A model generated the notes under the pieces. The model saw nothing but the letters and a program-made list of their open reading frames with translations, was not told where the DNA came from and made no database searches. From Candidatus Rifleibacterium amylolyticum (GTDB taxonomy: Bacteria > Muiribacteriota > Ozemobacteria > Ozemobacterales > Ozemobacteraceae), in the NCBI GenBank assembly GCA_009917695.1, contig JAACJG010000006.1:248001-312000 (forward strand): DNA of 64,000 nt. Direction: 5' to 3'. Shown piece after piece: positions 11,448 to 30,274 of the stretch. The position numbers were made by a program, and so were the translations under genes. Numbering within the stretch: the stretch's first letter is position 1; every line of letters begins with the position of its first letter.

Positions 11448-11882
11448 TTAAACAGCGACGTTGAGCCTTGGGCGCGGCGGATTATTCACCTGCACTGAAT
11501 TTTGATGCTTCTGCATCGCCAGCTCCCAGGTATTGCGAAGATTCTGCACCAATGGTTTGATCTCAAGCATGGGCGCAGGATCTTTTCTGACATTGGCATC
11601 GCCAAGTTTTTCTAGAAAGAACACGTATAACCGCTCAAGGTTGTCAGCGATTTCTCCACCCTTTTCTTTGTCGAGTGCAGTCATCAGCTCTGCGAAAATA
11701 GCCTGAATACGCAAGAGTAGATTGCTTATCTGCTCGATATTCTGTTCTTCAAAGGCAACTTCAGCCTGACACATGAACTTGATGGCGCCATCATAGAGCA
11801 TGAGTATCAACGCCTCAGGCGAAGCTGTTTCGACCTGGGTTTTCTTGTAGGCAGTGTTTTTGCTGTATGGGTTGGTGTTCAT
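11448..11882 (-). CDS. fliS: Flagellin export chaperone FliS
   Basis: 144 aa. The N-terminus NPYSKNTAYKKTQVETASPE followed by LILMLYDGAIKFM is characteristic of FliS. In the family this cytoplasmic four-helix protein holds the flagellin C-terminal helix unfolded until export. The start overlaps the end of the maf gene by 4 bases. In systems with FliW and CsrA, FliS also competes for cytoplasmic flagellin and so takes part in the feedback, which is relevant because fliW and csrA are in this window. The last ~15 residues (NNPPRPRLNVAV) are a non-helical extension. Confidence 0.93.
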   Translation of the reverse strand: MNTNPYSKNTAYKKTQVETASPEALILMLYDGAIKFMCQAEVAFEEQNIEQISNLLLRIQAIFAELMTALDKEKGGEIADNLERLYVFFLEKLGDANVRKDPAPMLEIKPLVQNLRNTWELAMQKHQNSVQVNNPPRPRLNVAV

Positions 11883-13816
11883 CGGGACAGGTCTCCCTTC
11901 AAACTTTGTTTTGATTTGTCTGCCCTGTCCAGTGAGGTTATTGCTTTTTCAAGAAGCGGTATCTGATATTCGTGAAAACTCTCGAGTGCTGCCAGGAAAC
12001 CAGAAATTTCCTTAATCCATTCACCAACAGTTGCCCGCGGCGAAGCCTTCAAATTGTTAAGCTCCATCGTATGGCGGGTCATAAACTTGGTCTGATGTAT
12101 CGAAAACCATGCGAACAGATCTTTTTCGATACATATATCGTCATGCAGCTTCATGACATCGTAATATTCGGCACTGGCTTTGCCACTCAGCCTGGCCGGC
12201 TCAATATCAGCATAGGCATTGAGAAGCTTTCGGCATACCGACACGGCGCGCCGCGCTTCACTTTCGTTGCGTCTGATAAGTTTGCGGTAATGCATAAGAC
12301 GCTCGCGCAATGCATTACAATCGGCATTTACCGGCCTTTGCAGCGCTTCGTCAAGAATCTCGCGCACTGGCGCGGCACGGTCAGCATATTTGGCAATGAC
12401 GCTTGTCAGCGGCATTATATCAACATATTTGTCAACGACACCACCTTCGGTGGCATTGATTATCTTAACTGGAGTCTGCCGGAACTGATCTTCGAACCAG
12501 TCGCGGTAAAGCTTCATGTTTTCGTCGGTGTACAACGCCTTGCCATCGCTGCGAACAAGCTTATAGCGGCCTCTGGTGTTGATATAATCAGCAGACTCAT
12601 GCTCGATCGAAGTAAATGAATGAATGCGTTCAAACAGCAGATCATCCGAATAAGAACCGCGAGCATGCAGTCGACCGTCTTCAAAAGACAGGTCGAGGCC
12701 GATAAAAACTATCGGATCAGCACCCATGTTTCGCACTAGATCGAACACGGTTGTCGCGATCGAACCCCAGCAGATAAGAGTTCCAACTGGCTCGCGCAGG
12801 TCTTTGAAAACCGGGTGCAGCCCACCGCCAAATGTCATAAGCATTTTGGGGCCTTTGAAACTCTCGAATATATCAGGATGCGTCATCGGTTCGATAGCCA
12901 GAATCACATCTGACTCGTTCTCCACGCCGACAAAATCGAGAGAATTTTCATAAGATGGATCGGCTGCACAGACAATATCCGGTCTGATTCCGTTGGCAAC
13001 CAGCTGACGCAAAGCCGTATCAACAGCCACGATTGGAAACTTACCCTTTACATTCCTGAGATAGTGCATGTTGCGGTCGAGCGAAGGTCCTGCCGCAACC
13101 ACGATCGCAGGCGTATTACTGAATCTGCCAAAAAGTCTGTCGATGCCTGGCAAAGTAAAACCGGCTGCCAGGTTGGCAAAATAATTAGAATGAAACTCAA
13201 AGCCTGAGTGCATAAGCGTTACCAGATTACCCTTGGAACGATTGCACAAATATCTGATTTTTTCGACGACACGCTCAAAATAGGCGTTATGTCGAGCTTT
13301 CGCCGGCGGGTGGTCGATTATTGCCAGCCGTTCGAGAACTGACCAGTCAAGATTGACATTCCAGAAATCGCCGATCTCATCAGGCCCCATTCCGATGCAG
13401 AGGGCAACCCGCTGATCCGTAAAAAGCCGGCTGAGATCGCGCGCCTGCATGGCCGCGACAAAAACAGCAGGATCGGGCTCGATTACAAAAAGCTGTGGCC
13501 CACCAACCATTACCTTCAGTTGCAACAGAATCTCTTCTGCCGTGTAGCCCAAACCGAAACCGAGCAGCAACACATGACTCTGGCCTTCGTAACTGGCCGC
13601 CACCTGCTTTTTTGCTTCTGCCTGCGGGTCATAACGGCTGTGATAAGAAAGCGGGCGGGCACCATCTTCGTGCAAAGCCAGTGTTGGCTGGCCGTTACGG
13701 GCATTTTCGACACGATACTTTTCGGGTGTAAAGCGGGGCGCGTATCCTTTTACCAGCTGATAAGCTGCAGGATGGCGCTTCAACACCGATAGATTGCGAT
13801 TGAACGTGTCGTTCAT
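11879..13816 (-). CDS. maf: Maf-family flagellin glycosyltransferase (DUF115)
   Basis: 645 aa. The central DUF115 region is clear: AIVVAAGPSLDRNMHYL, then VAVDTALRQLVANGIRPD and VCAADP. Maf proteins transfer nonulosonic acids such as pseudaminic acid to Ser/Thr on flagellin before export. The protein sits in the filament operon between fliS and an unknown gene, overlapping fliS by 4 bases. The truncated pseB at the left edge would provide the first step of donor-sugar synthesis, so flagellin glycosylation with pseudaminic acid is a reasonable inference. A legionaminic acid donor cannot be excluded. Confidence 0.85.
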   Translation of the reverse strand: MNDTFNRNLSVLKRHPAAYQLVKGYAPRFTPEKYRVENARNGQPTLALHEDGARPLSYHSRYDPQAEAKKQVAASYEGQSHVLLLGFGLGYTAEEILLQLKVMVGGPQLFVIEPDPAVFVAAMQARDLSRLFTDQRVALCIGMGPDEIGDFWNVNLDWSVLERLAIIDHPPAKARHNAYFERVVEKIRYLCNRSKGNLVTLMHSGFEFHSNYFANLAAGFTLPGIDRLFGRFSNTPAIVVAAGPSLDRNMHYLRNVKGKFPIVAVDTALRQLVANGIRPDIVCAADPSYENSLDFVGVENESDVILAIEPMTHPDIFESFKGPKMLMTFGGGLHPVFKDLREPVGTLICWGSIATTVFDLVRNMGADPIVFIGLDLSFEDGRLHARGSYSDDLLFERIHSFTSIEHESADYINTRGRYKLVRSDGKALYTDENMKLYRDWFEDQFRQTPVKIINATEGGVVDKYVDIMPLTSVIAKYADRAAPVREILDEALQRPVNADCNALRERLMHYRKLIRRNESEARRAVSVCRKLLNAYADIEPARLSGKASAEYYDVMKLHDDICIEKDLFAWFSIHQTKFMTRHTMELNNLKASPRATVGEWIKEISGFLAALESFHEYQIPLLEKAITSLDRADKSKQSLKGDLSR

Positions 13817-13827
13817 AGAAGCCCCTG

Positions 13828-14433
13828 TCAGGCAGCAAGGATGCTTTTAATAAAACCCTTGCTGTCCTGCAAAATTTCAGGAAATTCATACTCCAGAATA
13901 TCCGCCAGACCGACCCAGTCCTGTGCCTCCTGGGCGATCTGAACCTGGTTCATCTGTTCACCAAGCCGCTGCACAAGGCTCTGTCGATCACTTTCCAGAG
14001 ATGACTCTGCCATGTTTGATGCAAAAGCGAGATCGGCATTCTTGAGCATGGTTACCAGCCATTCGATGCCATCAACAAATTCAAGGTAGCTGTCCATGCC
14101 CTCTTTAACCTTACCAATCCGCAGTTCAGACGCGACTTCGACTGCCAGCTCTTCGAGATGCTGCAGCCCGGCTTCGCCATCGGCAAAGGCGGCGCGAACC
14201 ATATCCTGGGCAGTTGCTGTAAATAATTCTATCTTCTGGTAGTCCATTACCTTGAGCGCTGAAATTTCAGAAACATCGTCGGCTGAATAACTTTTTTCGT
14301 CGAGAATGATTTCAATTACGGTTGCCTGAGTTCCTTTGAGGGATTCCTCGACCGTTGTTAAAAGTTCGAGCACTGTCACTTCAGGGCCAATGCCCTCGAT
14401 ATCAAGCCGGTTGTCATTCAGCAGTATTTCCAA
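13828..14433 (-). CDS. Unknown protein of the flagellar filament operon
   Basis: 201 aa, no signal peptide or membrane segment. The first 75 residues look like a small beta-rich domain (MEILLNDNRLDIEG, then VIEIILDEKSYSADDV and YQKIELFTAT). The rest is helical and acidic, with DWVGLADILEYEFPEIL near the C-terminus. I do not recognise a family. It lies 11 bases upstream of maf and 33 bases after fliD, in the same operon, so it is probably a cytoplasmic chaperone or assembly factor for FliD/flagellin or a partner of Maf. This is guilt by association only. Confidence 0.75.
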   Translation of the reverse strand: MEILLNDNRLDIEGIGPEVTVLELLTTVEESLKGTQATVIEIILDEKSYSADDVSEISALKVMDYQKIELFTATAQDMVRAAFADGEAGLQHLEELAVEVASELRIGKVKEGMDSYLEFVDGIEWLVTMLKNADLAFASNMAESSLESDRQSLVQRLGEQMNQVQIAQEAQDWVGLADILEYEFPEILQDSKGFIKSILAA

Positions 14434-14466: not shown

Positions 14467-17448
14467 CTACTTGTTTCCTGTCAGCTGTGCAAGCTGATTT
14501 GAAAATGCCGTCGCCTGTGACTGATAATTACTGAGAGCGCTTTCAAGAGTTGCGAACTGCTTGAGCAAAGCTTCTTCACGCGAAGCCAGGCGCTCTTCCT
14601 GTTTGGCGATCTGGCTGTTGATCAGCGATATCTGCTTATCCATCTCGCTGTTCGAACTGGCGACGCCAGAACGCCCAACCCGCTTGGTCAGCATACCGTC
14701 TGATCGGGTAAATTCATTGAGCACATCTTTAAGTCGGCGGGCTATGCCCCTTTTGTTGACGTCAGTCGCATCCTGGTTGAACAAGGCCGCAATCTTGTCG
14801 GGATTCGCCTTGAGCGCAGCTTCCAGATTTTCTTTGCTTGAAATAGTAAGTGTCCCGACCATGGTGTCTTTGTAGTTTGAGCCGACTGCACCCGTTGTGA
14901 TACCAATATCCGACAAACTGTCGAAGAAACTGTCGACACCAGGCACGACAGAAGACATCACCATGCGCATCTGCGATCTGACACTGCGCAAAGTACTGTC
15001 ACCAGAGAGCAACCCGACCTTGTAAGCCTCTTCATATGCAGCAAGCTCAGAATCCGACAAAGCGCTCTTCTCTTCGTCAGTAAGAGCACTTAGAGACCAG
15101 TTACGCTCTTCGGTCAACTTTCCGTATATCGTCTGGGTAATTTCATTGTAGGCATCAATAAAGTCAGTTATCGCCTGCATACCAACTTCGGTGTCAGCTT
15201 CGACATTGATTACGCTGCCGCTGGCACCGGTAACATCGTAGATATTAAAGCTCACGCCCTCGACAACGTCGCTGATGGTGTTCGACTGACTGACCTGATC
15301 GGCACCTCCAAACACCCCGTCTATGCTGTAGATAGCATTTTTACCGACATTCTGCGTTGCCCCCTGCAATCCCATTGCTGCAAGGAAATTGCTGCTGTCA
15401 GTTGGCGAGCCCAGCGCGATTGCGCGATTTCCGGTTTCAGTCGAGGTCAGTACAAATTTACCGTTAGTTTTGTCGTAATGTGCCTTTACCCCAACCTGGC
15501 TGTTATTGTTGATCGCACTGATAACCTGGTCGAGAGTCATGCTCGAAGTGCTGTTGATCATGAACTTCACGCCATTGATACTGAAACTGCCGGCCGTTAC
15601 AGCACTGGCAAAACCGGCACTGGCAAAAGGCGTAGCTGTCTTAACATCTGATATCGGCCGGGCACTGACAATACTTGAACCGGTATCGAGGCCGTTAACC
15701 GGGCCATTGGCCAGGCCAAGGGCACTGCCCAGCGTACCGGCGCCAAGATCTTTGATCTCAAGCGTTGCAGCCGTACCCTTATCAGTACCGGTTATGTTAA
15801 CTTTGCCGGTTGCTGCATCATAGTAAGCACTTGCAACACCTTCTACCTCTGCGATTCTGTCGATGATCTCACTTAAAGTTTCTGTTCCGTCATAACTGAT
15901 GTCAGTAGCCTGCCCGTTAACCAGAACCTGCAAAGTACCGGCGCCAACTCCGAATTCAGTTGCAATATCGCTGGTGCGTGCATCAGCCAGCGACAACCCG
16001 AGATTGCCCGAACTGGCCAGTTTGGCGGCGGCAGCCTGACTGCCTGCTACCAGACCGGTCGCGCTGAGAAAATTACTCGTGTCTGTTGAAGAACCCATAC
16101 CTATTGGAGCAGTGCTGCCATCTTTGCGGGTCAGAGTTATCAGGTCGGTAGCTGAATCATAAGTCGCGTTCAGATTGGTCATTGAAGTTATACGCGAAAG
16201 CACACCCTGCAGGGTGTCGATCGAAGGATTTACATTAATCTGAACGCCATCAACGGTAAAAGTTCCAGCAGTAATGCTCTGGGCAAAGGTTTCATTGGTA
16301 AGTTTTTCGCCATTATCAAGCCCGGAAACCTTCATCATTGCGCCAAAAAGTTTTTCGGTAAAGTTGGAAGTATTGTCGGTAACACTGAAAAAATTTCCGT
16401 CGGCCGAATCAGTGTTCACAATCTGAAGCTTACCACTGCCCTGGTCGAAGCGAAATTCTACCAGCCGATCATCCGGATTTCCGGTAGGAACACCGCCCTT
16501 CACAAGGCTCGCACGGGTATCTATATCCTCATTGAGAAATTTTATCAGATCAGCCACTTTGGTGCTGCCCGGCAGACCACTGATATCGAAAGATTCTGGC
16601 GAACCAGTTCCAGCGCGCTCGATGAAGAAAGACCCCGGAGTAATACCAAGATCGTCCAATGTAGTGTCAAGACCAGATCTTATATTCATCAGACCAGACT
16701 CGATGGCAGGTAGATCCTTGTCGAGATCTATTTGTCCATCGGCGTCGAACATTCCGCTTATGATCCCAGAAGGTGCGACATCGACAACTTCAACACTCAG
16801 ATTCGGGTCGAGCAGATTGAAGCGCACTCTGTTGTTGCGTGCATCATAGCTCGCATTGAGTTTGCCCTTGAGCTCTGGTTTATTGTTGATGCTGGTATTG
16901 ATGTTGTTTATCAACCCGTCGATTGTAGTATCGGCCGTAGCACCGGTCGCAATATTGTAAGTGCCTGAACCACCGCCAACAACACGCACCTCGAGGTTAC
17001 CCGGAGTAATGCCAAGCGCTCCGAGGGTCGTCGAAGAACCTCCCAGTTTGCTGGTACTTTTCAAATTGTAACCAAGTTCTAATGCTCCGGCCAGCTTGCC
17101 CTGCGATGCTACGGTAGTCGAAGTTGCCACCTGTTTAACATGCATGGTATAGCTGCCGATAGCAGCAGCAGTTGTTGCCGTCGCATTGACGACACGCGGG
17201 TCACTCGCGTCTACCTTCTTGGTATTGAAGGTGCGGCTGAAGGTAAGGTCAGTAGCCTTGTTCTGAAGCTCGAAAAGCTTGAGATTTATATCCTGAAGCA
17301 TGGTGCGCTGATAATCCATGGTGTTGCGCTTACGCTGCAGGTTGAATTTGGTAAAGCTCTCGGCTTTGAGCATCTGCTCAATCAAAGACTGGGTGTCGAG
17401 CCCTGAAGAGAGCCCGCCCACCCAGTTTCTATTTACACTGCTGACCAT
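14467..17448 (-). CDS. fliD: Flagellar filament cap / hook-associated protein 2, enlarged
   Basis: 993 aa, about twice the common FliD length of 450-600. The N-terminal GLSSGLDTQSLIEQMLKAE and the long C-terminal heptad region (QISLINSQIAKQEERLASRE) are the conserved D0/D1 parts of FliD. Between them lie several repeated modules of the Flagellin_IN type, each about 100-130 residues with motifs such as GITPGNLEVRV, DLGITPGSFFIE and FTVDGVQINVN. FliD forms the cap that folds exported flagellin into the growing filament. A strong GTCAGGAGG ribosome site precedes the ATG. The gene follows flaG and is read from the sigma-28-type promoter at 18178-18204. Confidence 0.92.
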   Translation of the reverse strand: MVSSVNRNWVGGLSSGLDTQSLIEQMLKAESFTKFNLQRKRNTMDYQRTMLQDINLKLFELQNKATDLTFSRTFNTKKVDASDPRVVNATATTAAAIGSYTMHVKQVATSTTVASQGKLAGALELGYNLKSTSKLGGSSTTLGALGITPGNLEVRVVGGGSGTYNIATGATADTTIDGLINNINTSINNKPELKGKLNASYDARNNRVRFNLLDPNLSVEVVDVAPSGIISGMFDADGQIDLDKDLPAIESGLMNIRSGLDTTLDDLGITPGSFFIERAGTGSPESFDISGLPGSTKVADLIKFLNEDIDTRASLVKGGVPTGNPDDRLVEFRFDQGSGKLQIVNTDSADGNFFSVTDNTSNFTEKLFGAMMKVSGLDNGEKLTNETFAQSITAGTFTVDGVQINVNPSIDTLQGVLSRITSMTNLNATYDSATDLITLTRKDGSTAPIGMGSSTDTSNFLSATGLVAGSQAAAAKLASSGNLGLSLADARTSDIATEFGVGAGTLQVLVNGQATDISYDGTETLSEIIDRIAEVEGVASAYYDAATGKVNITGTDKGTAATLEIKDLGAGTLGSALGLANGPVNGLDTGSSIVSARPISDVKTATPFASAGFASAVTAGSFSINGVKFMINSTSSMTLDQVISAINNNSQVGVKAHYDKTNGKFVLTSTETGNRAIALGSPTDSSNFLAAMGLQGATQNVGKNAIYSIDGVFGGADQVSQSNTISDVVEGVSFNIYDVTGASGSVINVEADTEVGMQAITDFIDAYNEITQTIYGKLTEERNWSLSALTDEEKSALSDSELAAYEEAYKVGLLSGDSTLRSVRSQMRMVMSSVVPGVDSFFDSLSDIGITTGAVGSNYKDTMVGTLTISSKENLEAALKANPDKIAALFNQDATDVNKRGIARRLKDVLNEFTRSDGMLTKRVGRSGVASSNSEMDKQISLINSQIAKQEERLASREEALLKQFATLESALSNYQSQATAFSNQLAQLTGNK

Positions 17449-17491: not shown

Positions 17492-17854
17492 CTATGCTTT
17501 TTTATCGAAAATCAGACCCATGTAATCTTCCATCTTGGCAACGAGATCGAGAACTTCTTCGTTCGGAATCTGGCGGATAACCTTGTCCTTGGTAATATCC
17601 ACCACCGACACCATCGTTCTATGCGTAGCATCATGAATCTGAAAGCGCAGCGATTTGTCGAAAATCACTGCTGTCTTATTAAGTTTATCGACAGCTTCCT
17701 GAAGTTCTTCCTGTGTTTTCTCGCGATTTTCCTTGGGTGATTCGAGCTGCTTGCTATCAAGCTCCGCCACTTTACCTGCTTCTCCACTTCTATCGACGCT
17801 ACCCTGGGTGGACTGAGTCGGATCCAGGACTGGTCTTATGTTACCGATTTCCAT
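17492..17854 (-). CDS. flaG: FlaG family protein
   Basis: 120 aa. The C-terminal half carries the FlaG pattern: LRFQIHDATHRTMVSVVDI, then VIRQIPNEEVLDLVAKM. FlaG proteins influence filament length and are usually next to fliD. The N-terminal half is charged and probably disordered. A strong AAGGAGGATG ribosome site lies in the 15-base gap after the 71-codon gene, with which it is co-transcribed. Confidence 0.88.
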   Translation of the reverse strand: MEIGNIRPVLDPTQSTQGSVDRSGEAGKVAELDSKQLESPKENREKTQEELQEAVDKLNKTAVIFDKSLRFQIHDATHRTMVSVVDITKDKVIRQIPNEEVLDLVAKMEDYMGLIFDKKA

Positions 17855-17869
17855 TTCAGCATCCTCCTT

Positions 17870-18085
17870 TCATAAACTCAGTAATTCGTTGAAATATTCG
17901 AACGGCCGAAATGTCTGTAGAGCAAGACATTCGGCCAGATTTCCAGAATTGAAGTCAGAAACTGGCCTGACAAATGATATAAAATGGCCGCCCCGATCAC
18001 TGGTCGGAAAATGCGACCGGCCGGCTGGCGATTCGCCATACCGCTGCCCCGAAGCCAGATTGCTGAGCACAAAAGCTTTCTGCAT
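17870..18085 (-). CDS. Small protein with a flagellin-type leader (unknown)
   Basis: 71 aa starting MQKAFVLSNLASGQRYGE and ending FEYFNELLSL. I chose this ATG over the longer open frame (to 18187) because AAGGAGG sits 7 bases upstream, in the loop of a hairpin whose 16 bases are identical to those at the flagellin 1 start. It is the first gene of the flaG-fliD-maf-fliS operon, 15 bases before flaG. It has no signal peptide or transmembrane segment; the middle is Gly/Ser/Arg/His-rich. I do not recognise a family. It could be a regulated small flagellar protein or a leader peptide whose translation sets expression of the operon. Confidence 0.62.
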   Translation of the reverse strand: MQKAFVLSNLASGQRYGESPAGRSHFPTSDRGGHFISFVRPVSDFNSGNLAECLALQTFRPFEYFNELLSL

Positions 18086-18087
18086 CA

Positions 18088-18103
18088 GATTCCTCCTTGA
18101 ATC
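18088..18103 (-). promoter_or_regulatory. Shine-Dalgarno hairpin, candidate CsrA site (71-codon gene)
   Basis: Minus-strand GATTC-AAGGAG-GAATC: a 5-bp stem with the ribosome binding site as the loop. The loop contains A-N-GGA, the CsrA recognition core. The 16 bases are identical to those at 20563-20578. Confidence 0.65.
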
Positions 18104-18110
18104 CATAAAG

Positions 18111-18130
18111 CATTTGCATCCTTGCAAATG
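18111..18130 (-). promoter_or_regulatory. Upstream GGA hairpin, candidate second CsrA site
   Basis: An 8-bp perfect stem (CATTTGCA / TGCAAATG) with loop AGGA on the minus strand, 7 bases upstream of the ribosome-site hairpin. The core CAAGGATG fits the known high-affinity CsrA consensus (ACARGGAUG) well. Confidence 0.6.
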
Positions 18131-18177
18131 TAAATCCCTAAACCAAAAACACACAGTTTCCCCATATCCTATTATAT

Positions 18178-18204
18178 TTATCGACATAATTTACCTGACG
18201 ATTA
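18178..18204 (-). promoter_or_regulatory. Sigma-28-type promoter of the flaG-fliD-fliS operon
   Basis: On the minus strand TAAT (18204-18201), 15 bases, GTCGATAA (18185-18178). This is one base off at each box from the flagellar sigma-28 consensus (TAAA, GCCGATAA). It lies in the gap after flagellin 1, about 93 bases before the 71-codon gene. Confidence 0.68.
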
Positions 18205-18294: not shown

Positions 18295-20559
18295 TCACCT
18301 CAAAAGACTCAGCACTCCGGCGGCATTAGTATTCGCCTGAGCGAGCATTGCATTGGCCGACTGACTGACAACCTGATTACGGGTAAATTCTATCATTTCC
18401 AATGCAATGTCTGCATCTCTTATTCGTGATTCTGATGCCGAACTGTTGACATGCATATTGCGCAGATTGGTTATCGCATGTTCGAGACGGTTTTGAAAGG
18501 CACCCAGCTTTGAGCGTTCGGCTGAGACAAGATCAATTGCCTTGTTAAGTTTTCCTATAGCCAGTTCAGCCCCTTCGACTGTCGTCATATCAAGATTATC
18601 AATGCCAAGAGCCTTAGCTGACATTTCAGAAAAAGAAACCTTCATCACTTCCATCTGATTCGCACCAATATGGTACTGATTTTCGTTCTGCTGCACATGC
18701 ATGGTAAAGTTGCTGTCGCCAACCCCGCTTTTCGTTCCGGCACTCATGCCGAAGTACCGCAGCATGGTTTCGGCAGCGGTTGCCGTTGCATTCAACGCTG
18801 TTACCGTAACGGCTTTGATTGACACCATACTGGAGTAGGCCGTGCCGGCAGCTACGTTATCGCGCCCGATACGCGTTGAAGTGAACATTATCGAACCTTC
18901 GACCTGATCTACCCGTACATTTACACCGGCATCAGCAAAGTCCTGGTTAGCCTTATTCCTGAATTCTTCAAAACTGATCATATCGGCAGTAGTTACCACA
19001 CCTGGATCAGCTGAAATCGACTGACAAAGGTTAACCAGGATTGAATTCTGACCGTCGCCTACTTCGAGAACAGCAGCAGTGCTGACTTCTATACCAGGCT
19101 GATACTGACTGAAACCCCAGGCCATCTTGTCAGTGTCTTTTACACTTTCGACAAATCCACTGTACAAACCATCCTGAAAACCCAGAACCGAAGATGGTCC
19201 GGCATAAGAAATTTTGATACTGTTACCAAAGGCATAAGAAACCGATACCGGCCGCTGATATGCCAGCCTGATTTCGCCATTTACCACCTGCGCAGACAGT
19301 CCTGGCAGAGAACCGGCGGCCGTCGACCTGATCTGCTCGTTTAAACTGCGCGCAATACCCTCGAGAGTGCTGTAACCACTGGCTACTGCCAGCCCGATCA
19401 ACTGCCCCCCCGCTTCTACCATAAAGCTCTCAGCCGCTGAAAAGTAGAGACCCTGAACAAGTCCGCGACTACCGGCAATCTGGGCTGCCTGCGAATCGAA
19501 CTGTACATCGATGCCGCTGAGCAGACCTGAGGCTCGATCACAGTCAATCTGCGTAACTCTCGTCTGCTTGTCCTTGTCGGTAAGCTGCACTTCGACGAGA
19601 TTGTCTTTGGCCGCGCGCGCTGTCGATATGCCAAGCGCAGTCATCAGACTTTCGTCGCCCGCCATACTCACGCAGCCCTTTTCCCCTATGTAACCTGAAG
19701 TGATCTCCAGATAACCGCCAAGCCCGGTAAGCATTGTCTGTGAAGTTACCACGACGTTCACCACCGAATTATCGATCCCAAGGCCGTCCTTTTTGCTGAG
19801 CATGGCACTCTGCAACCGCGATGCGAATTCATCGAGGCTGGTATAGGCATCGATCACCACTTCGGCCGAGCGCGCATTGCCGTGCAAAGTTATTGTCTGT
19901 GGCTCTTCGAGCACAAAGACACCATTGGCGTCGTAGAATTGCGCAATGCTTTGCAGCATGGTATCGCCCTGCGCCAGATGGTTGCTGTCGCGCAGAGAAA
20001 AGAGATGCGTAGTCTGCAGCTGCGCCGAGCCCGCCTGCAAAAGCGCCAGACTGACCTGGTAATCGCCGCCCTCCGGCACATTACCAGTTACCAGACCGCG
20101 CGCATAGGCAGAGCTTGTGCTTACAGCCGCGTTTTGACTGCCATCGAGCAGCTTTTTGGTATTGAATTCTGTGTTGAAAGCAATACGGTTGATGTCGTCA
20201 CGCAGCTGTACGACCTCCTTCTGAATTTCAAGGCGGTCACGGCTGGTGAGCGTATCATTCGAAGCCTGAATGGCAAGCTCACGCATGCGGTGCAGGATAC
20301 TGTGAGTCTCGTTGAGAGCACCTTCGGCCGACTGAATCATCGAGATTCCGTCCTGGGCGTTCATGGTAGCACGGGCGAGGCCGCGCACCTGGCGCCGCAG
20401 TTTTTCACTTATCGTCAACCCCGCTGCGTCATCGGCAGCACGATTGATCCTCAAGCCAGAACTCAGTTTTTCAACTGATTTTTCGAGTCTGTTCGAAACT
20501 CCCAGCATCTGATGGTAAGAAGTTACCGCCGGGATATTATGATTTACTCTTAATGACAT
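18295..20559 (-). CDS. Flagellin 1
   Basis: 754 aa from the ATG at 20559 (MSLRVNHNIPAV), which has AAGGAGG in the loop of a small hairpin; an upstream in-frame ATG at 20613 is not supported. The N-terminal D0/D1 ([20 protein letters not shown]) and C-terminal D1/D0 ([20 protein letters not shown], ending GVLSLLR) are clearly flagellin. The middle ~480 residues form a large variable insert, so the protein is much longer than typical flagellins. It is a structural subunit of the filament, exported through the flagellar secretion system and probably glycosylated by Maf. It is paralogous to flagellin 2 directly upstream, with which it shares leader architecture. Confidence 0.94.
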   Translation of the reverse strand: MSLRVNHNIPAVTSYHQMLGVSNRLEKSVEKLSSGLRINRAADDAAGLTISEKLRRQVRGLARATMNAQDGISMIQSAEGALNETHSILHRMRELAIQASNDTLTSRDRLEIQKEVVQLRDDINRIAFNTEFNTKKLLDGSQNAAVSTSSAYARGLVTGNVPEGGDYQVSLALLQAGSAQLQTTHLFSLRDSNHLAQGDTMLQSIAQFYDANGVFVLEEPQTITLHGNARSAEVVIDAYTSLDEFASRLQSAMLSKKDGLGIDNSVVNVVVTSQTMLTGLGGYLEITSGYIGEKGCVSMAGDESLMTALGISTARAAKDNLVEVQLTDKDKQTRVTQIDCDRASGLLSGIDVQFDSQAAQIAGSRGLVQGLYFSAAESFMVEAGGQLIGLAVASGYSTLEGIARSLNEQIRSTAAGSLPGLSAQVVNGEIRLAYQRPVSVSYAFGNSIKISYAGPSSVLGFQDGLYSGFVESVKDTDKMAWGFSQYQPGIEVSTAAVLEVGDGQNSILVNLCQSISADPGVVTTADMISFEEFRNKANQDFADAGVNVRVDQVEGSIMFTSTRIGRDNVAAGTAYSSMVSIKAVTVTALNATATAAETMLRYFGMSAGTKSGVGDSNFTMHVQQNENQYHIGANQMEVMKVSFSEMSAKALGIDNLDMTTVEGAELAIGKLNKAIDLVSAERSKLGAFQNRLEHAITNLRNMHVNSSASESRIRDADIALEMIEFTRNQVVSQSANAMLAQANTNAAGVLSLLR

Positions 20560-20562
20560 GCT

Positions 20563-20578
20563 GATTCCTCCTTGAATC
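20563..20578 (-). promoter_or_regulatory. Shine-Dalgarno hairpin, candidate CsrA site (flagellin 1)
   Basis: GATTC-AAGGAG-GAATC on the minus strand, 3 bases before the ATG. The loop holds the ribosome site and an A-N-GGA core. Identical to the element before the 71-codon gene. Confidence 0.65.
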
Positions 20579-20586
20579 ATGGTAAT

Positions 20587-20604
20587 TCGCGCGTCCCTGC
20601 GCGA
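20587..20604 (-). promoter_or_regulatory. Upstream GGA hairpin, candidate second CsrA site (flagellin 1)
   Basis: Minus strand TCGCGC-AGGGAC-GCGCGA: a 6-bp GC-rich stem with AGGGA (A-N-GGA) in the loop, 8 bases upstream of the ribosome-site hairpin. Confidence 0.55.
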
Positions 20605-20703
20605 CTGGCTCACAGTTAGCCTGCGATTAAGTTGTCAGAAAACGAATCAGCAATCACCTCCATAATTTTCAGGCAGAAATTGATAATTTTTCTGCCGCAA
20701 TAA

Positions 20704-20845: not shown

Positions 20846-23074
20846 TTATCTGAGCAGCTGCAAGACTCCCTGCGGAACCATATTGGCCTGAGCCAGCATG
20901 GCAGTGCCCGACTGAGAAATGATCTGGTTTCTGGTGAATTCAATCATTTCCATGGCGATATCAGCATCTCTGATTCTGGATTCAGAAGATACCAGGTTGC
21001 TGTGCGTGTTGCGCAGATTGTTGATGGCGAACTCGAGTCGGTTCTGGAAAGCACCCATCTTGGAGCGTTCGGCCGACACTTTGTCGATAGCCTTGTTGAT
21101 CTTTGCCACAGCGCTCTGAGCATTCTTGACGGTGCTGAGATCAATATTGGCAACGCCGAGTGCCTTAGACGACATATTACTGAAAGCCACATTCATACTC
21201 TGGCCCTGATCGGCGCCAATCTGGAACTGCGGCGACGAATCGACAACGAACATCTTGAAGTTCGAATCGCCCGACCCCTTTGCCGTTCCTTCGCTTACAC
21301 CCAGCTTGTTCAGGAAAACATCGTCACTCACATTCGTGCCCACCAGGGCAAGAGTTACCATGCTGCTCAATGCAGCAATATTATTCTGGTTAAGTTTGCC
21401 GACTAGAGTAGAAGTGAATGCAAGTGCTGAACCAACCTGATCCAGCCTCACATTTACCGTGTTAGTATCTATTTCAGCATGAACAAGCCGCTGGAACTCG
21501 ACGAATGAAGTCATATCGGCTGCCGTAACCGTAGTTACAATAGTCATTACAACTGTTGCCACAGTTACGCCATCACCAACCTGGAACGCCATCGTAGCAG
21601 CGGCGGCGGCGGTAGCAACATACATGCTCATGCCCCATTCGACATAGCTGGTGTCTTTGCGGGCATCGACGAAACCACTGTAAGTGCCCTCAACCAGACC
21701 GATACGAGCAGCATGTGCCGCGACACCACTTATATTGATCGTGCTGGCAATAGTTATCGAAGCGGTTGCAGGCTTATCATAGCTGATTCTAATTTCACCC
21801 TCGACAACTGAGGCTTCAAGACCTACGACATTGGCGGTAGCAATTTCATCGTTGATCTGGCGGGCAAGTGCTTCCATACTCCACAGCCCGATACCGATTT
21901 CGACTGTAACCGTCAGGCTTCCTGCGCTGATGATGAACTGCGAAGCGGCAGCGGTAATTCGCAAACCCTGTTCGAGACCTTGGGTTCCCGCTATCTGAGC
22001 CGCCTGCGATGTGAATTCCAAGTCTACGCCGTTGAGCAGAGATGATGCGGTCGCTCCTTCGACGTTCACGGTGCGAACATTTCCGAAGCCATCACGAAGC
22101 TCTACAGCCACACGATTTTCTACCGCTTCCCGGCTGATATTCAGCCCCATGGAATCGAGAACCTTCTGGTCGGCAGAAAACGACACGCTGCCTGCTTCAC
22201 CGATGCTGCCAGAGATGACCTGTAGATAGCCGCCCAGGCCGGCAACCTGGCTCTGAACAGTATTAACTGTAGCAACCCGCGAATTCTGTATATCGAGTCC
22301 ACTTTTGCTGACCATGGCGTTCTGAAGAGCCGCCGCCAGGTTGTCAAGCGTCATCTGACCATCAATGTTAACACTGGCAGTTTTACCGTTTCCGGTAAGT
22401 GTTACTGCCTGCGGCGTTGAAAGAACGAATACGCCATTAGCATCGTAGAACTGGGCAATACTCTGAAGCTGCGTACCGCCATCCGCCAGTCCGGTCGCAT
22501 CTTTGAGCGAAAAGATCTGCGAACGCTGCATTTCAGCAATACCACCGCGCAGCAGTTCGAGTGACACATCATAGCTGCCACCTGCGCCGCTGGCACTGCC
22601 ATTAACCAGACCCGACACCGAATTTGAACTGGCGCTGATCAAAGCACTCTGACTGCCATCGAGCAGCTTTTTCGTATTGAACTCGGTGTTTTTCGCGATG
22701 CGGTCGAGATCGAGCCTGAGCTGATTCACCTCTTTCTGAATCTCGAGACGGTCATTGCTGGTAAGAGTATCGTTAGATGCCTGAATCGCCAGTTCACGCA
22801 TTCTCTGCAATATGCTGTGCGACTCACCCAGCGCTCCTTCAGCGGTTTGCACCATCGAAATGCCATCCTGAGCGTTGAGCACAGCTCGACTCAGGCCACG
22901 AATCTGACGGCGCATTTTTTCGCTGATTGCAAGGCCGGCGGCATCATCAGCAGCGCTGTTGATACGCAGACCCGAACTAAGCTTCTGAATCGACTTTTCC
23001 AGTCGCGCAGAAGTCTGACTTATAGCACCATAGGTGCTGATTGAAAGCACATTCTGATTGATTTTGAGACTCAT
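20846..23074 (-). CDS. Flagellin 2
   Basis: 742 aa from the ATG at 23074 ([14 protein letters not shown]), chosen because ATGGAGG lies directly before it. The N-terminal [20 protein letters not shown] and C-terminal [20 protein letters not shown] (ending GVLQLLR) are the conserved flagellin D0/D1 coiled coils. A long middle insert contains alanine-rich stretches. Similarity to flagellin 1 is high at both ends and moderate in the insert, so the two arose by duplication. It has its own sigma-28-type promoter (23272-23299), a leader of about 190 bases with several GGA motifs, and three hairpins after its stop. It forms the filament with flagellins 1 and 3. Confidence 0.94.
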
Positions 23075-23077
23075 AAT

Positions 23078-23093
23078 GATTCCTCCATGAATC
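23078..23093 (-). promoter_or_regulatory. Shine-Dalgarno hairpin, candidate CsrA site (flagellin 2)
   Basis: Minus strand GATTC-ATGGAG-GAATC, 3 bases before the ATG. Same stem as in flagellin 1 and the 71-codon gene, with one loop base changed that keeps the A-N-GGA core. Confidence 0.65.
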
Positions 23094-23105
23094 AAAGTTT
23101 AAATT

Positions 23106-23468: not shown

Positions 23469-25916
23469 TCAGATAAATAAGCCGGCGTTGCTCTTTGACA
23501 GTTCATCGATATACATGGCGACACCACCAAGCTCGACTCCATCGATCAATTCGCTTTCCTTGATGCCCATGACATCCATACTCATCGAGCAGGCTACCAT
23601 TTTGACACCATTCTCGATGGCCTGCTGCAGAAGCTCTTTAAGGGTCGCAACATTTTTGCTGGCCATTACATGATGCATCATGACAGTGCCCATGCCACCC
23701 ATGTTCATTTTTGAGAGCTTCAGGCCATCAACGCCTTTCGGCAGCATCATTCCGAACATTTTTTCCATCATATCTTTCTTCACCGGCTTATCAGGTTCAC
23801 GTCTTAACAGACTGAGACCCCAAAAGGTGAAGAACAGGGTTACCTTGTAACCGGCCGCCACCGCGCCATTCGCGATAATCAAAGCCGCCATGGCCTTGTC
23901 GAAATCGTTGCTGAAGATAACGTTCGACATCTGCTTCTGGCAGGTCGTAATGGCCGTACAGCTCTGTTGCCCAAGCTTGCGCACAACCGCCCGGTATTTG
24001 CCGCCGGCGACCTTTTCGACACTGACCGACTGGTGACCGGTCGAGCGGCACCAGGCCGGCACATCGGCAGCAAAGCCCGGATCGGTTGAAAGAACCTCAA
24101 CAGCCTGCCCCTTGTCTATCGTATCGATTGCCTTGCGCAGTTGCGAGATTGGTCCTGGGCACTGCAATCCGGAAACATCGAGAGTTCTCACAATATTAAC
24201 GTCGCCAGCAACAGCAGCATCATTGGCAATTTCTGATTCGCTGCCGGCGTCGTCGCTCATGCTCGACTTATCATATACCGCAGTCTGATTGAACATGCAG
24301 TAGGTCTTATACCCACCATCTAGATTGCTGGCGCGGAAGCCACGCTGTTTGAGTATGCGGTAAGCCAGATAACCGCGCAAACCAGCCTGACAATAGACCA
24401 TGTACTCCCTGTCGGGCGACAATTCGCTTATTTTCTGGCGCAGCTCATGCAATGGAATATGTACTGCGCCAGGTATCATGCCCGCCTGGACTTCCTCGAG
24501 TGTCCTGACATCCAGCAATTTCTGATCTGGCTTGAGCGTTGATACTTCGTTAGCATGGAAATGCTCACCGTGACCACGCAACAGGTTGGCGGCTACGAAA
24601 CCGGCATAATTAACCGGATCTTTGGCTGAGCCATAAGGCGGCGCGTAACAGAGTTCCATTTCTTCGAGATCATATACAGTCATGCCGGCACGAATAGCTA
24701 CCGCCATAACGTCAATGCGCTTTTCGACACCGTCAAGCCCAACTGCCTGAGCACCGAGAACGCGGCCGGTATCAGGATCATAAATCATCTTCAGACTGAT
24801 AGATGTAGCTCCAGGGTAATAAGAAGCATGGTTGGCCGGGTGAACATAGACCTTATCGTATCGGATCGCGTTTTTAACGGCCTGTTTTTCGCTCAATCCG
24901 GTCATCGCGAAGGTCAGGTCAAACACCTTGCAGACAGCCGAACCTTGAGTGTCGCGATATTCGCGCTTGAGGCCGAAAATGTTGTCAACCGCGATACGCC
25001 CCTGACGGTTGGCAGGGCCGGCCAGCGGAATCAACGCCGGTTTGCCGGTCATCAGATCTTTGACTTCGACTGCATCGCCGACAGCATATACAGATTCGTC
25101 ACTTGTCTGCATGAACGAATTAACTTTGATGCCGCCGGTTACACCGACTTCAATACCGGCATCCTTTGCCAGGCCATTTTCAGGGCGGACACCAATAGCC
25201 ATGATCACAGCATCGGTATCTATCTTATCACCAGAACTCAGGATAACCCTTATTTTGTCGTCATTGGCAGTAAAGCTGGTAACGGATTGCCCAAGTCTCA
25301 GATTAACTGAGTTCATCTTGATCTCAGTATGCAGCATAGTTGCCATTTCAGGATCGGCCGGGCCCATGACCTGGTTCGCCAGTTCAACCAGAGTTACTTC
25401 GAGACCAAGATGGCGCAGTGATTCGGTCATTTCGAGACCGATATAACCGCCACCTACGACAACCGCCGAAGCCTTGCCTTTAACTGCAGACTTAATGCGA
25501 TCCATGTCTTCGAGATTACGCAAAGAAAAGATACCCGGCAGATCGATACCTGATATCGGAGGTTTAATAGCCGCCGCTCCCGGGCTCAAGATCAGGTAAT
25601 CGTATGTCTCGACGTAATCCTGGCCGGTTTTGAGATCTTTCACCAACACCTGTTTCTTGTCGCGTTCGATTTTGACTACTTCATTCCGAACACGCACATC
25701 TATGGCGAATTTCTCATACATGACTTCTGGAGTAGTTACCAGCAAGCTTTCGCGCTCAGGAATAACCCCGCCGATGTGATACGGCAGACCGCAGTTGGCG
25801 AAAGATATATGTTCACCCCGTTCAAAAAGAATGATTTCAGCTTTTTCATCGAGTCGGCGCGCCCGCGCTGCCGCGCTGGCGCCACCGGCCACACCACCTA
25901 TTATGAGTATTTTCAT
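23469..25916 (-). CDS. CoA-disulfide reductase-rhodanese-TusA-DsrE four-domain fusion
   Basis: 815 aa. Domain order: FAD/NAD(P)-dependent CoA-disulfide reductase-type oxidoreductase (about 1-445; FAD motif GGVAGGASAAARAR, redox Cys42 in NCGLPYH); rhodanese (about 460-545, active Cys509 in YCQAGLRG); TusA-like sulfur carrier (about 575-645, Cys586 in LQCPGP); and a DsrE/F-like domain (about 650-815, CSMSMDVMGI). Such fusions are thought to handle persulfide or polysulfide sulfur and pass it between carriers, or to reduce it with NAD(P)H. The gene lies 12 bases after thioredoxin, under a sigma-54 promoter. It interrupts the flagellar cluster. The function is inferred from domains. Confidence 0.88.
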   Translation of the reverse strand: MKILIIGGVAGGASAAARARRLDEKAEIILFERGEHISFANCGLPYHIGGVIPERESLLVTTPEVMYEKFAIDVRVRNEVVKIERDKKQVLVKDLKTGQDYVETYDYLILSPGAAAIKPPISGIDLPGIFSLRNLEDMDRIKSAVKGKASAVVVGGGYIGLEMTESLRHLGLEVTLVELANQVMGPADPEMATMLHTEIKMNSVNLRLGQSVTSFTANDDKIRVILSSGDKIDTDAVIMAIGVRPENGLAKDAGIEVGVTGGIKVNSFMQTSDESVYAVGDAVEVKDLMTGKPALIPLAGPANRQGRIAVDNIFGLKREYRDTQGSAVCKVFDLTFAMTGLSEKQAVKNAIRYDKVYVHPANHASYYPGATSISLKMIYDPDTGRVLGAQAVGLDGVEKRIDVMAVAIRAGMTVYDLEEMELCYAPPYGSAKDPVNYAGFVAANLLRGHGEHFHANEVSTLKPDQKLLDVRTLEEVQAGMIPGAVHIPLHELRQKISELSPDREYMVYCQAGLRGYLAYRILKQRGFRASNLDGGYKTYCMFNQTAVYDKSSMSDDAGSESEIANDAAVAGDVNIVRTLDVSGLQCPGPISQLRKAIDTIDKGQAVEVLSTDPGFAADVPAWCRSTGHQSVSVEKVAGGKYRAVVRKLGQQSCTAITTCQKQMSNVIFSNDFDKAMAALIIANGAVAAGYKVTLFFTFWGLSLLRREPDKPVKKDMMEKMFGMMLPKGVDGLKLSKMNMGGMGTVMMHHVMASKNVATLKELLQQAIENGVKMVACSMSMDVMGIKESELIDGVELGGVAMYIDELSKSNAGLFI

Positions 25917-26730: not shown

Positions 26731-29343
26731 TTATCTGAGGAGATCGAGAACAGCCTGGGCGGAGACGTTGGCCTGACCGACCATGGCGTTGCTGGCCTGC
26801 TGCAGAATCTGCGACGAGGTCATTTCGATAACTTCGGCGGCCATATCGACGTCTCTGATACGTGATTCAGAGGCTGTCATGTTCTGCAATGCTACACTCA
26901 AGCTGTTGAGAGTGTAGTTCATGCGGTTTTCGATGGCACCCAGTTTGGCGCGTTCAGAAGATATGCGCTGCAGGGCTTTATCGATAAGACCTATTGCTAT
27001 TTCAGACGATTTGACCGTAGTCAGATCGAGGTCTTCTATACCAAGCGCCTTACAGTCAGTGCGTATGATATTCGACACCGCCGTATGACCCTGATTCGGC
27101 CCAATCTGGAACTGAATCTGAGTATCCTTGACATGCATCGTATAGGCATAGTTGCCACTGCCGTTCTGATATGCCACCGGATCGACATCAAATATAGATT
27201 TAAGTGTGTTCGTAGAATCGGGACTGCCGAGTTCGGCGAATACTATGCGCCCATCTCTGCCTGGAATCGTCGAAAACATTCTGATGGTCTGAGTTGCCGT
27301 CAAAATTTCGGCGTTAACCTTAACCCCCTGCAAACTGGCCTGAGCATTGATCTGGTTGGCAATTTCCGTGATAGACCGGAATGAAGTGCCGGCAGAACCA
27401 GCCGGGAAGGCAATCGACATGCCATTACCATCAAGGTCGGCAATATAGAACGACAGATTATCGACACCGCCAGTAGCTGTGTGGTCAAAAACGACATAAC
27501 CAAATCGAGCCGAGGGCTGATCATAAGCGAAATTCTGCACAGCTGAATTGCCGTCGAAACCGCTTATCGTAGTTTGCTGATGCACCTTTAAACCTGCTGC
27601 AATGCCGAGAGCACCACCGCCTGTATCAAAGATGTCAAAGTTCGATTCAACACCTGTTTCAAGTGATCTGAAGGCAAGCACGCCATTTTTGGCTTCTGCG
27701 GTTACGAGAAGGCCATTTGCACCGATCTGGAGATTGATAGCCTCAACCAGCGAATTCAGGCCACCAGCAGTGTAATTACCCGTAAGTCGGATTATTGTAG
27801 AACTGCCCAAAACGTCATGTCTGTCTGCGATTGAGAACTCAATGGAAGTTCCAGCCTGAGAAAAGTCGAAAGCATCGATAATATCGTAACCAGTTGCAAC
27901 ACCTGGATTGCCACCAGTGCCAGTATATCGGCCGTTGGAAACCCCCAGAGGATTGGTAGTTGCATTGGTAATGGAAACGTATGCTGCCGAACCGGTATTC
28001 AAAGTAGTGAATTCGAGAGCATATTGATCGTTGACTCTTACAGTTACCATACTGCTTGCAGCACGCAGTTCTGTGTTAATGATCGAAGCGACCTGCTGCA
28101 TACTGTAAACACCAGAGCCAATATTAATCGGCACTGTTAGAGTAGACGAAACCGAGTCGTCGATATCAAAAGTAATAGCGCTGGGAATTGAGATGCCCAG
28201 AACCGCAGCCTTGGTAACGGCATTGGCCGACTGAGGCGGTTCAAACATCAGATCGATGCCTTCGATGAGACCCATGGCGCGATGACCGGCAATCTGCGTG
28301 GTAAGAGTATTGCGCTCGCCAAACGGAACACCGAGATTGGTGACGGCGATAGAATAAACCGGATCTTCGGCAGGAATTACAGCCTGGAATCCAAGCGCTT
28401 TAACCAGCGATTCTTCGCCGGTGAAATTGATGCGGCCAAGTTCGCCGTTGCGACCTGAAATAACAGTGATCTGACCGTTGTCGTCACCGCTGTCGCTGAT
28501 GAAAGCCTGAGAACCTTCGAAATCGAGGCCTTTGCCAAGCTGGTCAAGGGTCATCGCCGCCTGAATTCTTTCGGTCAACTGACCAAGAGTAAGGTCTTTG
28601 CTGACGACGATTTCGCCCTGGCTGTTATCGCCCTGGAGAAAAAGAGTCTGGGGCAGGTCAAGAATAAAATGATTGTTCTTGTCGTAGAAATTGGCAAGTG
28701 AAGCAAGGGTTGTCGAAGAAGTTGCAATCTCGCCGTCAGTAGTCACGAAAATAGCTGAGCGCTGATGTTCGGGAGTTCCTGAATAGGTTTTATAGCCGAT
28801 ACCGGGAATGTATTCCGATTTCGGCCAGACTACGACTGAAAAGTCAGAAAAGGTAAGAACTTCGCCGACAACTACGCCGTCAAGATTCTTCGGGTCGCTG
28901 CTGGAAATTACAGCGGTGCCCGAGCCATCAAGCAGTTTTCTGGTATTGAATTCAGTACCGTAAGAAATTCTGTTGATGTCTTCTTTGAGCTGGGCGATTT
29001 CTTTCTGAATCTCAAGACGGTCGGTAGTGGTAAGAGTGTCATTGCCCGACTGCAGAGCCAGTTCACGCATACGCTGCAGCATGCTGTGAATCTCATTGAG
29101 AGCTCCTTCTGCCGTCTGAATGAGACTGATTCCGTCCTGAACATTCATTCTGGCCCGGGTGATACCACGCACCTGCGTGCGCAGCTTCTCAGAGATGGTC
29201 AGACCGGCGGCGTCATCAGACGCGCGGTTGATTCTCAAGCCTGAGGACAGTCGCTCGATTGAACTCGACAACCTGTTGTCATTCTTAACCAGGTTACTGT
29301 GAGCGTTTAGAGCCGTTACATTTGAATTAATACGCAGGGCCAT
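26731..29343 (-). CDS. Flagellin 3
   Basis: 870 aa, the longest of the three flagellins. The N-terminus (MALRINSNVTALNAHSNL, then SGLRINRASDDAAGLT) and the C-terminus (ESRIRDVDMAAEVIEMTSSQ, ending AVLDLLR) are the conserved coiled-coil ends. The middle ~590 residues are a large insert with Flagellin_IN-like modules. It diverges more from flagellins 1 and 2 than they do from each other. The leader has ATGGAGG as ribosome site but lacks the GATTC/GAATC hairpin of the other two, so its translation may be controlled differently. It ends in a good terminator. I see only a weak sigma-28-like sequence upstream (TCCGATGA, 29428-29421). Confidence 0.94.
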   Translation of the reverse strand: MALRINSNVTALNAHSNLVKNDNRLSSSIERLSSGLRINRASDDAAGLTISEKLRTQVRGITRARMNVQDGISLIQTAEGALNEIHSMLQRMRELALQSGNDTLTTTDRLEIQKEIAQLKEDINRISYGTEFNTRKLLDGSGTAVISSSDPKNLDGVVVGEVLTFSDFSVVVWPKSEYIPGIGYKTYSGTPEHQRSAIFVTTDGEIATSSTTLASLANFYDKNNHFILDLPQTLFLQGDNSQGEIVVSKDLTLGQLTERIQAAMTLDQLGKGLDFEGSQAFISDSGDDNGQITVISGRNGELGRINFTGEESLVKALGFQAVIPAEDPVYSIAVTNLGVPFGERNTLTTQIAGHRAMGLIEGIDLMFEPPQSANAVTKAAVLGISIPSAITFDIDDSVSSTLTVPINIGSGVYSMQQVASIINTELRAASSMVTVRVNDQYALEFTTLNTGSAAYVSITNATTNPLGVSNGRYTGTGGNPGVATGYDIIDAFDFSQAGTSIEFSIADRHDVLGSSTIIRLTGNYTAGGLNSLVEAINLQIGANGLLVTAEAKNGVLAFRSLETGVESNFDIFDTGGGALGIAAGLKVHQQTTISGFDGNSAVQNFAYDQPSARFGYVVFDHTATGGVDNLSFYIADLDGNGMSIAFPAGSAGTSFRSITEIANQINAQASLQGVKVNAEILTATQTIRMFSTIPGRDGRIVFAELGSPDSTNTLKSIFDVDPVAYQNGSGNYAYTMHVKDTQIQFQIGPNQGHTAVSNIIRTDCKALGIEDLDLTTVKSSEIAIGLIDKALQRISSERAKLGAIENRMNYTLNSLSVALQNMTASESRIRDVDMAAEVIEMTSSQILQQASNAMVGQANVSAQAVLDLLR

Positions 29344-29507: not shown

Positions 29508-29774
29508 TTATTGCTTTTTTGCTTTATTATCTTTTTTTCCGAAATTTTTAAGAATATCCTGAGGCAGGCTCTTGAGCGGATCAAGAGACGTAATCTTAGC
29601 GGCTTCGCGATTTTCCTTCTGGATTTCTTCGTAAACTTCCCAGCGATGCACCTTAACGCTTCGAGGTGCATTGATACCAATTTTCACCTGATCCTTACCG
29701 ATATCAACCAGAACGATCTCAACGTCATCGCCGATGATGATCTTTTCGTTTATTTTTCTTGTCAGTACAAGCAT
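29508..29774 (-). CDS. csrA: Translational regulator CsrA
   Basis: 88 aa. The N-terminal [20 protein letters not shown] and the following [19 protein letters not shown] are the CsrA RNA-binding fold, including the conserved Leu4/Arg6 and Arg44 regions. The protein is 15-25 residues longer than common CsrA because of a Lys-rich C-terminal tail. It binds GGA motifs in mRNA leaders and blocks ribosome access. The start overlaps the fliW stop by one base (TGATG). In organisms with FliW, the main CsrA target is flagellin mRNA, which fits the hairpins seen in the flagellin leaders here. C-terminal extensions are known in FliW-antagonised CsrA proteins. Confidence 0.95.
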
Positions 29775-30274
29775 CAGCTCTCGTCCTCCCCTTTGGGATC
29801 AGACTCGAGAGACTCCTGGACTTCCTTGAGCTTGGCGGCGCGTTTTTCCATTTCATCGAGAATGCGAGCCTTGACTGAATGTCTGGCATTGCTTGAAATG
29901 ATCTGGCGGCCTTTGCGATTGGCAGCGTTGATAACCAGCGGTCCCTGCAGGTTGGCTGTCATATCGCTGGGATTGGCCGGAATCGTTACTATCACGTAGA
30001 GAACCGCATCTTCTGCGCGTTCAAGACTGATAAAACCAGCATCTGCATCTGAGATTTCAATGTCATACTCGAACATGAAGCTCAGAGGCTCAATGATTAC
30101 AAATGCCAGATTTCCGTCATCTACGCATTGCAACCAGCGGAAAGGACTTCCATCATCAGCATTGAGAATGACATACTGGTGGTAATCCCCAAAGCCAAGC
30201 AGGCCCTCTTCAAAGGTGATGATCTCATCTTTGCAAATTTCAATTTTTCCGAATCTGGAGGTCGAAATCTTCAT
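29774..30274 (-). CDS. fliW: Flagellar assembly factor FliW (CsrA antagonist)
   Basis: 166 aa, slightly longer than usual. Family motifs are clear: [20 protein letters not shown] near the N-terminus, FVIIEPLSF in the middle, and [20 protein letters not shown], followed by a helical tail. FliW binds either CsrA or unexported flagellin. When flagellin is secreted, freed FliW sequesters CsrA and flagellin translation resumes. The gene sits 19 bases after flgL and overlaps csrA by one base, forming the end of an flgK-flgL-fliW-csrA operon. Confidence 0.95.

Follow-up and report, generated by a model that had tools for sequence, protein, structure and literature searches.

The window analyzed here, a stretch of 64,000 nucleotides from a metagenome-assembled genome of Candidatus Rifleibacterium amylolyticum, carries on its minus strand a small open reading frame (uORF) located between a flagellin gene (18295-20613) and flaG (Table 1). 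Its start codon lies 2 nt 3′ of a hairpin, BS2, that holds the Shine-Dalgarno (SD) sequence AAGGAGGA, and 15 nt separate its TGA stop codon from the flaG ATG. The original prediction had placed a small frame with a ribosome site and a sigma-28-type promoter between the first flagellin gene and flaG, and these elements were all found, including the -10 sequence GTCGATAA. It had also warned that gene callers could start the frame too far upstream, and a mechanical caller did set the start at 18187, for a product of 105 amino acids. The gene order proposed behind the ORF agreed with the Pfam matches, which identified flaG, fliD, a maf/MptE-like gene and fliS, with one additional gene after fliD whose 201-amino acid product had no Pfam or NCBIfam family above cut-off. 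The fliW and csrA genes are side by side in the same window, and both genes were present in 20 of 22 genomes of the family.

Table 1. Features of the flaG leader, genes of the window and related small ORFs (window positions unless a locus is named)
Feature	Position	Strand	Sequence, match or remark
Candidate sigma-28-type promoter	18178..18204	minus	-35 TAAT, 18204-18201; -10 GTCGATAA, 18185-18178
BS1, distal CsrA-type hairpin	18111..18130	minus	CATTTGCAAGGATGCAAATG; loop AAGGAT; CANGGANG hexaloop
BS2, proximal hairpin	18088..18103	minus	GATTCAAGGAGGAATC; CANGGANG hexaloop with SD of the small ORF
Leader ORF (uORF), 71 codons	17870..18085	minus	MQKAFVLSNLASGQRYGESPAGRSHFPTSDRGGHFISFVRPVSDFNSGNLAECLALQTFRPFEYFNELLSL, 71 aa; stop TGA
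HP3, candidate RNA hairpin in ORF	17986..18018	minus	GGTCGC-ATTT-TCCG...CGGG-GCGGCC; 10 pairs kept in four genomes
HP4, candidate RNA hairpin in ORF	17904..17936	minus	GGCCGAATGTCT/AGACATTTCGGCC; three compensatory pairs, four genomes
flaG	17492..17854	minus	PF03646, E 1e-26
fliD, filament cap	14467..17448	minus	PF07195 + PF02465
201-aa protein between fliD and maf	13828-14433	minus	TTG start
maf/MptE-like, putative flagellin glycosyltransferase	11879..13816	minus	PF01973 + PF20157
fliS, flagellin chaperone	11448..11882	minus	PF02561
fliW, CsrA antagonist	29774..30274	minus	PF02623
csrA (Pfam match stretch)	29616..29774	minus	PF02599, E 2.7e-24; sole csrA match in genome
Genus g8 tandem small leader-ORFs, L116 (G012 C64)	6055-5577	minus	
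Genus g8 tandem small leader-ORFs, L118 (G019 C43)	4510-4267		

The two hairpins of the leader, BS1 and BS2, both fit the CsrA hexaloop CANGGANG, and the AAGGAGG enclosed by BS2 is a putative CsrA site, by sequence match, that overlaps the SD of the uORF. The GGA-to-GGA distance computed by script was 26 here; related leaders whose stem was scored had values of 23-38. As had been noticed before, the adjacent flagellin gene (18295-20613) has the identical 16-base BS2 sequence; the hairpin of a second flagellin gene (20846-23095) differs from it by one base. A search of the 5.4 Mb genome for GATTCANGGAGGAATC found three copies, all in this cluster (two flagellins and this ORF), and the reversed pattern used as control gave 0 matches. 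Within the window, hexaloops of the CANGGANG type with a stem of at least 4 bp numbered five, all of them in the leaders of two flagellins and of the ORF. In related genomes, the copies of BS2 found elsewhere were nearly all 5′ of flagellin genes. The flagellin and flaG leaders were pooled into a set of 48 distinct sequences, in which pairing at positions 2-5 of the BS1 stem exceeded that of all 2000 shuffles, a test that takes no account of relatedness. Since the sequence changes are many and occur on both sides, we take these stems to be real RNA structures. Searches of Rfam with positions 17870-18204 produced no match up to E = 1. Between the leader ORF and flaG (18204 to 17854, minus strand), nothing resembling the intrinsic terminator that a transcription attenuator with a leader peptide would have was detected.

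A flaG gene was located in 20 of the 24 family genomes. In 11 of these, distributed over four genera (g1, g5, g8 and g11), the -10 motif, a GGA-loop element and BS2 lie upstream of it, and a twelfth genome (G016) has the leader at a contig end. BS2 is retained in 10 of the flaG leaders and is one base off in G022. All 11 loci have the motif [GT][CT]CGATA 62-76 nt 5′ of the SD hairpin, and most have a TAA-type -35 at a fixed 19-nt offset from the -10. The exact BS2 was not found at flaG in the remaining flaG-bearing genomes of the family, and no such leader was seen in other families of the phylum where the region upstream of flaG was readable. The frame is open in 10 of the 11 loci, all 10 with an intact SD, and has 29-76 codons. 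Its stop codon lies anywhere from 11 nt inside flaG to 48 nt 5′ of the flaG start; stop and start strictly overlap only in G012, and the gap is 2 nt in G002. In shuffled sequences, 70 open codons were unremarkable by themselves (p = 0.09). When openness was combined over five lineages, each represented by one genome, Fisher's p was about 1e-4 to 1e-3, the latter value corresponding to the choice of the genome with the lost frame as representative of its lineage. The length of the ORF is within chance; the conservation of its leader, and the recurrence of an open frame in lineage after lineage, are not. This openness indicates that some pressure favors ribosomes reaching flaG. Conservation of the frame among relatives, on which the original prediction depended, thus held for an open frame reaching up to flaG but not for its sequence or length, which drift, nor for G022 (genus g11), where the frame was lost although the hairpins were kept.

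The leader could instead act as RNA only: its hairpins would serve to titrate CsrA or to determine mRNA stability, and the ORF would be incidental, or useful merely in keeping the RNA occupied by ribosomes. G022 retains the hairpins and a long stem described below with the frame gone, and G014, of genus g10, has GGA-loop hairpins and no frame; these two cases indicate that the frame is not always needed. The G014 leader (L152, about 1270-1420) shows the hairpin GGCTC-ACGGAT-GAGCC inside a longer stem at flaG, together with a sigma-28-like motif. A role in titration has been described for the Campylobacter jejuni flaA leader (PMC4894983), and tandem small leader-ORFs 5′ of flagellin in genus g8 are also compatible with it. 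Nonetheless, we judge this explanation unlikely as a whole, in view of a frame that is open beyond chance in 10 of 11 loci, with its stop near flaG, and of the intact SD wherever the frame is open. The g8 loci deserve a description of their own: one or two ORFs of 44-48 amino acids stand in tandem before flagellin, each preceded by a separate two-hairpin leader of flagellin type. They contain no detectable flagellin remnant, and it is possible that they are CsrA decoys or duplicated leaders.

RNA structure was also considered inside the frame and between the leader and flaG. Two candidate hairpins, HP3 and HP4, were found within the ORF. The compensatory pairs of HP4 had no counterpart in slid controls. 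In the stems of HP3, codon positions 1 and 2 vary and third positions are invariant among the four g1 genomes, but the little variation that exists makes it weak as covariation. The HP3 core had exact matches at the flaG loci of the four g1 genomes and nowhere else; when mismatches were allowed, many scattered matches appeared, and control matches were of similar order. Taken together, the four sequences are suggestive of HP3 and HP4 structures in g1. Stability z-scores of the ORF interior were -0.3 to -1.9 in g1 and -2.7 to -2.9 in G003, g8 and g5; the g1 values are not generally unusual, and we therefore do not propose that the ORF is structured as a whole. In genus g11, the segment 3′ of BS2 and the 5′ arm of BS2 were predicted to fold into a long stem, 6-12 kcal/mol more stable than the BS2 fold, in which TCAAGGA pairs with a downstream TCCTTGA. 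This stem and BS2 are mutually exclusive. It has the same shape in four genomes (L042, L046, L048 and L049), with changed inner arms, and it is retained in G022 without the ORF. When BS2 was constrained to form, as it would with CsrA bound, the freed TCCTT was predicted to pair with the flaG SD, AAGGAG, in G018 and G021; access to this SD, initially 0.80 in G021, fell there to 0.17, whereas it dropped only slightly in G018, and no effect on it was predicted in G022 or G023. The modeled competition between BS2 and the long stem suggests an RNA switch in g11. In g1, g5 and g8, BS2 is part of, or near, the default fold. In the predicted fold of this genome, the unpaired fraction of the flaG SD rose from 0.34 to 0.89 when the ORF was held open, but such a release was clear only in G000 and G012 and not at the other loci. 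A broader version of this idea, in which the leader is a protein-gated RNA switch, CsrA acts on flaG even without the uORF and the uORF serves elsewhere as an alternative relay of the same signal, is possible but unlikely.

The original prediction had offered a new small flagellar protein as one identity of the ORF product. The peptide could be aligned only among four genomes of genus g1, with 43, 35 and 23 percent identity to that of this genome and a common core, LA-x-R...GRSxFP...RGDR. Together with the strong SD and start, this core is what a fast-evolving protein with a real function would leave, as is the weak hint of coding constraint in g5, where two species compared over 23 codons show differences of 1/1/4 at the three codon positions. 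The comparison with flaG speaks against it. Differences in the ORF among g1 genomes are spread evenly over the codon positions (e.g., 22/23/25, 24/28/26 and 34/37/35), and those in flaG of the same genomes are 8/9/50 and similar; dN/dS was about 0.72-0.92 for the ORF and about 0.08-0.17 for the adjacent flaG. The HP3 stems, as described above, change at codon positions 1 and 2 and never at 3, and in G005 an extra base shifts the 3′ part of the ORF, HP4 included, into another reading frame. The peptides of G003 (g1), g5, g8 and g11 are unrelated and vary from 29 to 72 amino acids. The 71-amino acid peptide matched no family in Pfam or NCBIfam, and AlphaFold2 (AF2) gave no confident fold for it, although the mean pLDDT of 46, obtained with a thin alignment of four sequences, is only weak evidence. 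Homologs with weak E-values were rejected: one in the same genome (C7) is antisense inside a sensor-kinase gene, one in G004 overlaps gene starts and contains an internal stop, and the others were judged to be chance matches from their score and missing context. Judged from these comparisons, the sequence of the peptide is not what selection keeps, and the proposal of a new flagellar protein is not supported; we consider a functional, rapidly evolving protein improbable, somewhat more so than a leader acting as RNA only.

Even less credible is a decayed flagellin gene whose leader survives ahead of a new frame without a role: the leader is indeed of flagellin type and relatives hold decaying flagellins with intact leaders (G012 C64 at 2987 and G009 C160), but no flagellin coding remnant was detected in any ORF interior at the protein or DNA level, in a search that had the decaying flagellins of relatives as positive control, and the leader is retained over four genera with co-varying stems. 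Two truncated flagellin genes, at 2987-2400 of L116 (G012 C64) and 626-813 of L123, have frames of 65 and 55 amino acids and intact CsrA-type leaders, and they are probably decaying copies.

Comparison with known systems shows that the anatomy of this locus joins two designs, a flagellin leader and a uORF ending at flaG. The flagellin leaders of Bacillus subtilis (hag), Clostridioides difficile (fliC) and C. jejuni (flaA) contain two CsrA sites (PMC8523840, PMC4894983), GGA hexaloop hairpins separated by about 21-26 nt, of which the second covers the SD; CsrA represses and FliW releases. A sigma-28-type promoter and the presence of fliW and csrA in the genome are further points in common. Here, however, the leader is followed first by a short ORF that is not conserved, and the genes of the operon are flaG-fliD-maf-fliS rather than flagellin. 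The C. jejuni flaG leader has a sigma-28 promoter as well and is a CsrA-bound target under CsrA and FliW control, but its GGA motifs are near the SD of flaG itself, and the portion of that report available to us describes no uORF (PMC4894983). The second design is that of Escherichia coli iraD, which CsrA represses entirely via a coupled short uORF, ORF27, whose stop overlaps the iraD start (PMC5574718). There, as here, the CsrA-type sites are at the SD of a short uORF and not of the downstream gene, the uORF stops at or near the downstream start, and repression by coupling was proposed (PMC5574718). The differences are that the operon is flagellar in this case, that a FliW partner switch is expected in place of the CsrB/C sRNAs, that the uORF has 29-76 codons with stop/start overlap in some genomes only, and that these loci do not consistently sequester the downstream SD. 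When the literature was searched for uORFs in the leaders of flagellin genes or flaG, nothing came up beyond iraD and the papers on CsrA leaders.

These comparisons led us to favor, with moderate confidence, a flagellin-type CsrA leader placed on a translated uORF that is coupled to flaG-fliD-maf-fliS, such that the act of translation matters and the peptide does not. Since relatives retain the hairpins and the open frame but not the peptide, a regulatory relay is the most likely role of the element, ahead of that of a new flagellar protein. The variable spacing between the uORF stop and the flaG start counts against this reading. A transcript initiated with the flagellar sigma factor would carry both CsrA hexaloop hairpins, with the SD of the uORF inside the second. 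Flagellin accumulating in the cell would, by analogy with B. subtilis, take FliW from CsrA, and free CsrA would then bridge both hairpins and block the uORF. Once flagellin is exported, FliW would be free to remove CsrA and the uORF would be translated. Ribosomes finishing it would stop about -11 to +48 nt from the flaG start, and translation of flaG-fliD-maf-fliS would follow. Because the uORF would terminate near flaG, translation of the operon would track that of the uORF, and synthesis of the cap and chaperone would keep pace with that of flagellin. We infer from the sequence and by analogy that CsrA binds, that the frame is translated and that it is coupled to the operon, and the direction of the signal in this cell is taken from the B. 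subtilis, C. difficile, C. jejuni and E. coli systems. The earlier suggestion of a leader that couples CsrA status to expression of the cap and chaperone genes is therefore the best reading as far as the hairpins and the open frame are concerned; what does not stand is a part for the peptide sequence, which shows no codon-level constraint.

If this relay operates as proposed, a flagellin-type leader puts the cap and chaperone under the same CsrA/FliW signal as flagellin, with the uORF as the relay, and CsrA-uORF coupling, known from iraD, would extend to flagellar assembly. The locus would also exemplify a short ORF that is retained because it is translated, with a peptide free to drift, and would caution against annotating frames of this kind as new small proteins. 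A third flagellin gene, at 26731-29343 of the window on the minus strand (870 amino acids), adjoins csrA and is without the BS2 hairpin; thus, CsrA may not control all flagellins of this genome in the same way. At 25729-25897 on the plus strand, antisense to an 815-amino acid frame (23469-25916), there is a sub-threshold match to the Rfam family V_AS7 (59.8 bits; gathering threshold, 90).
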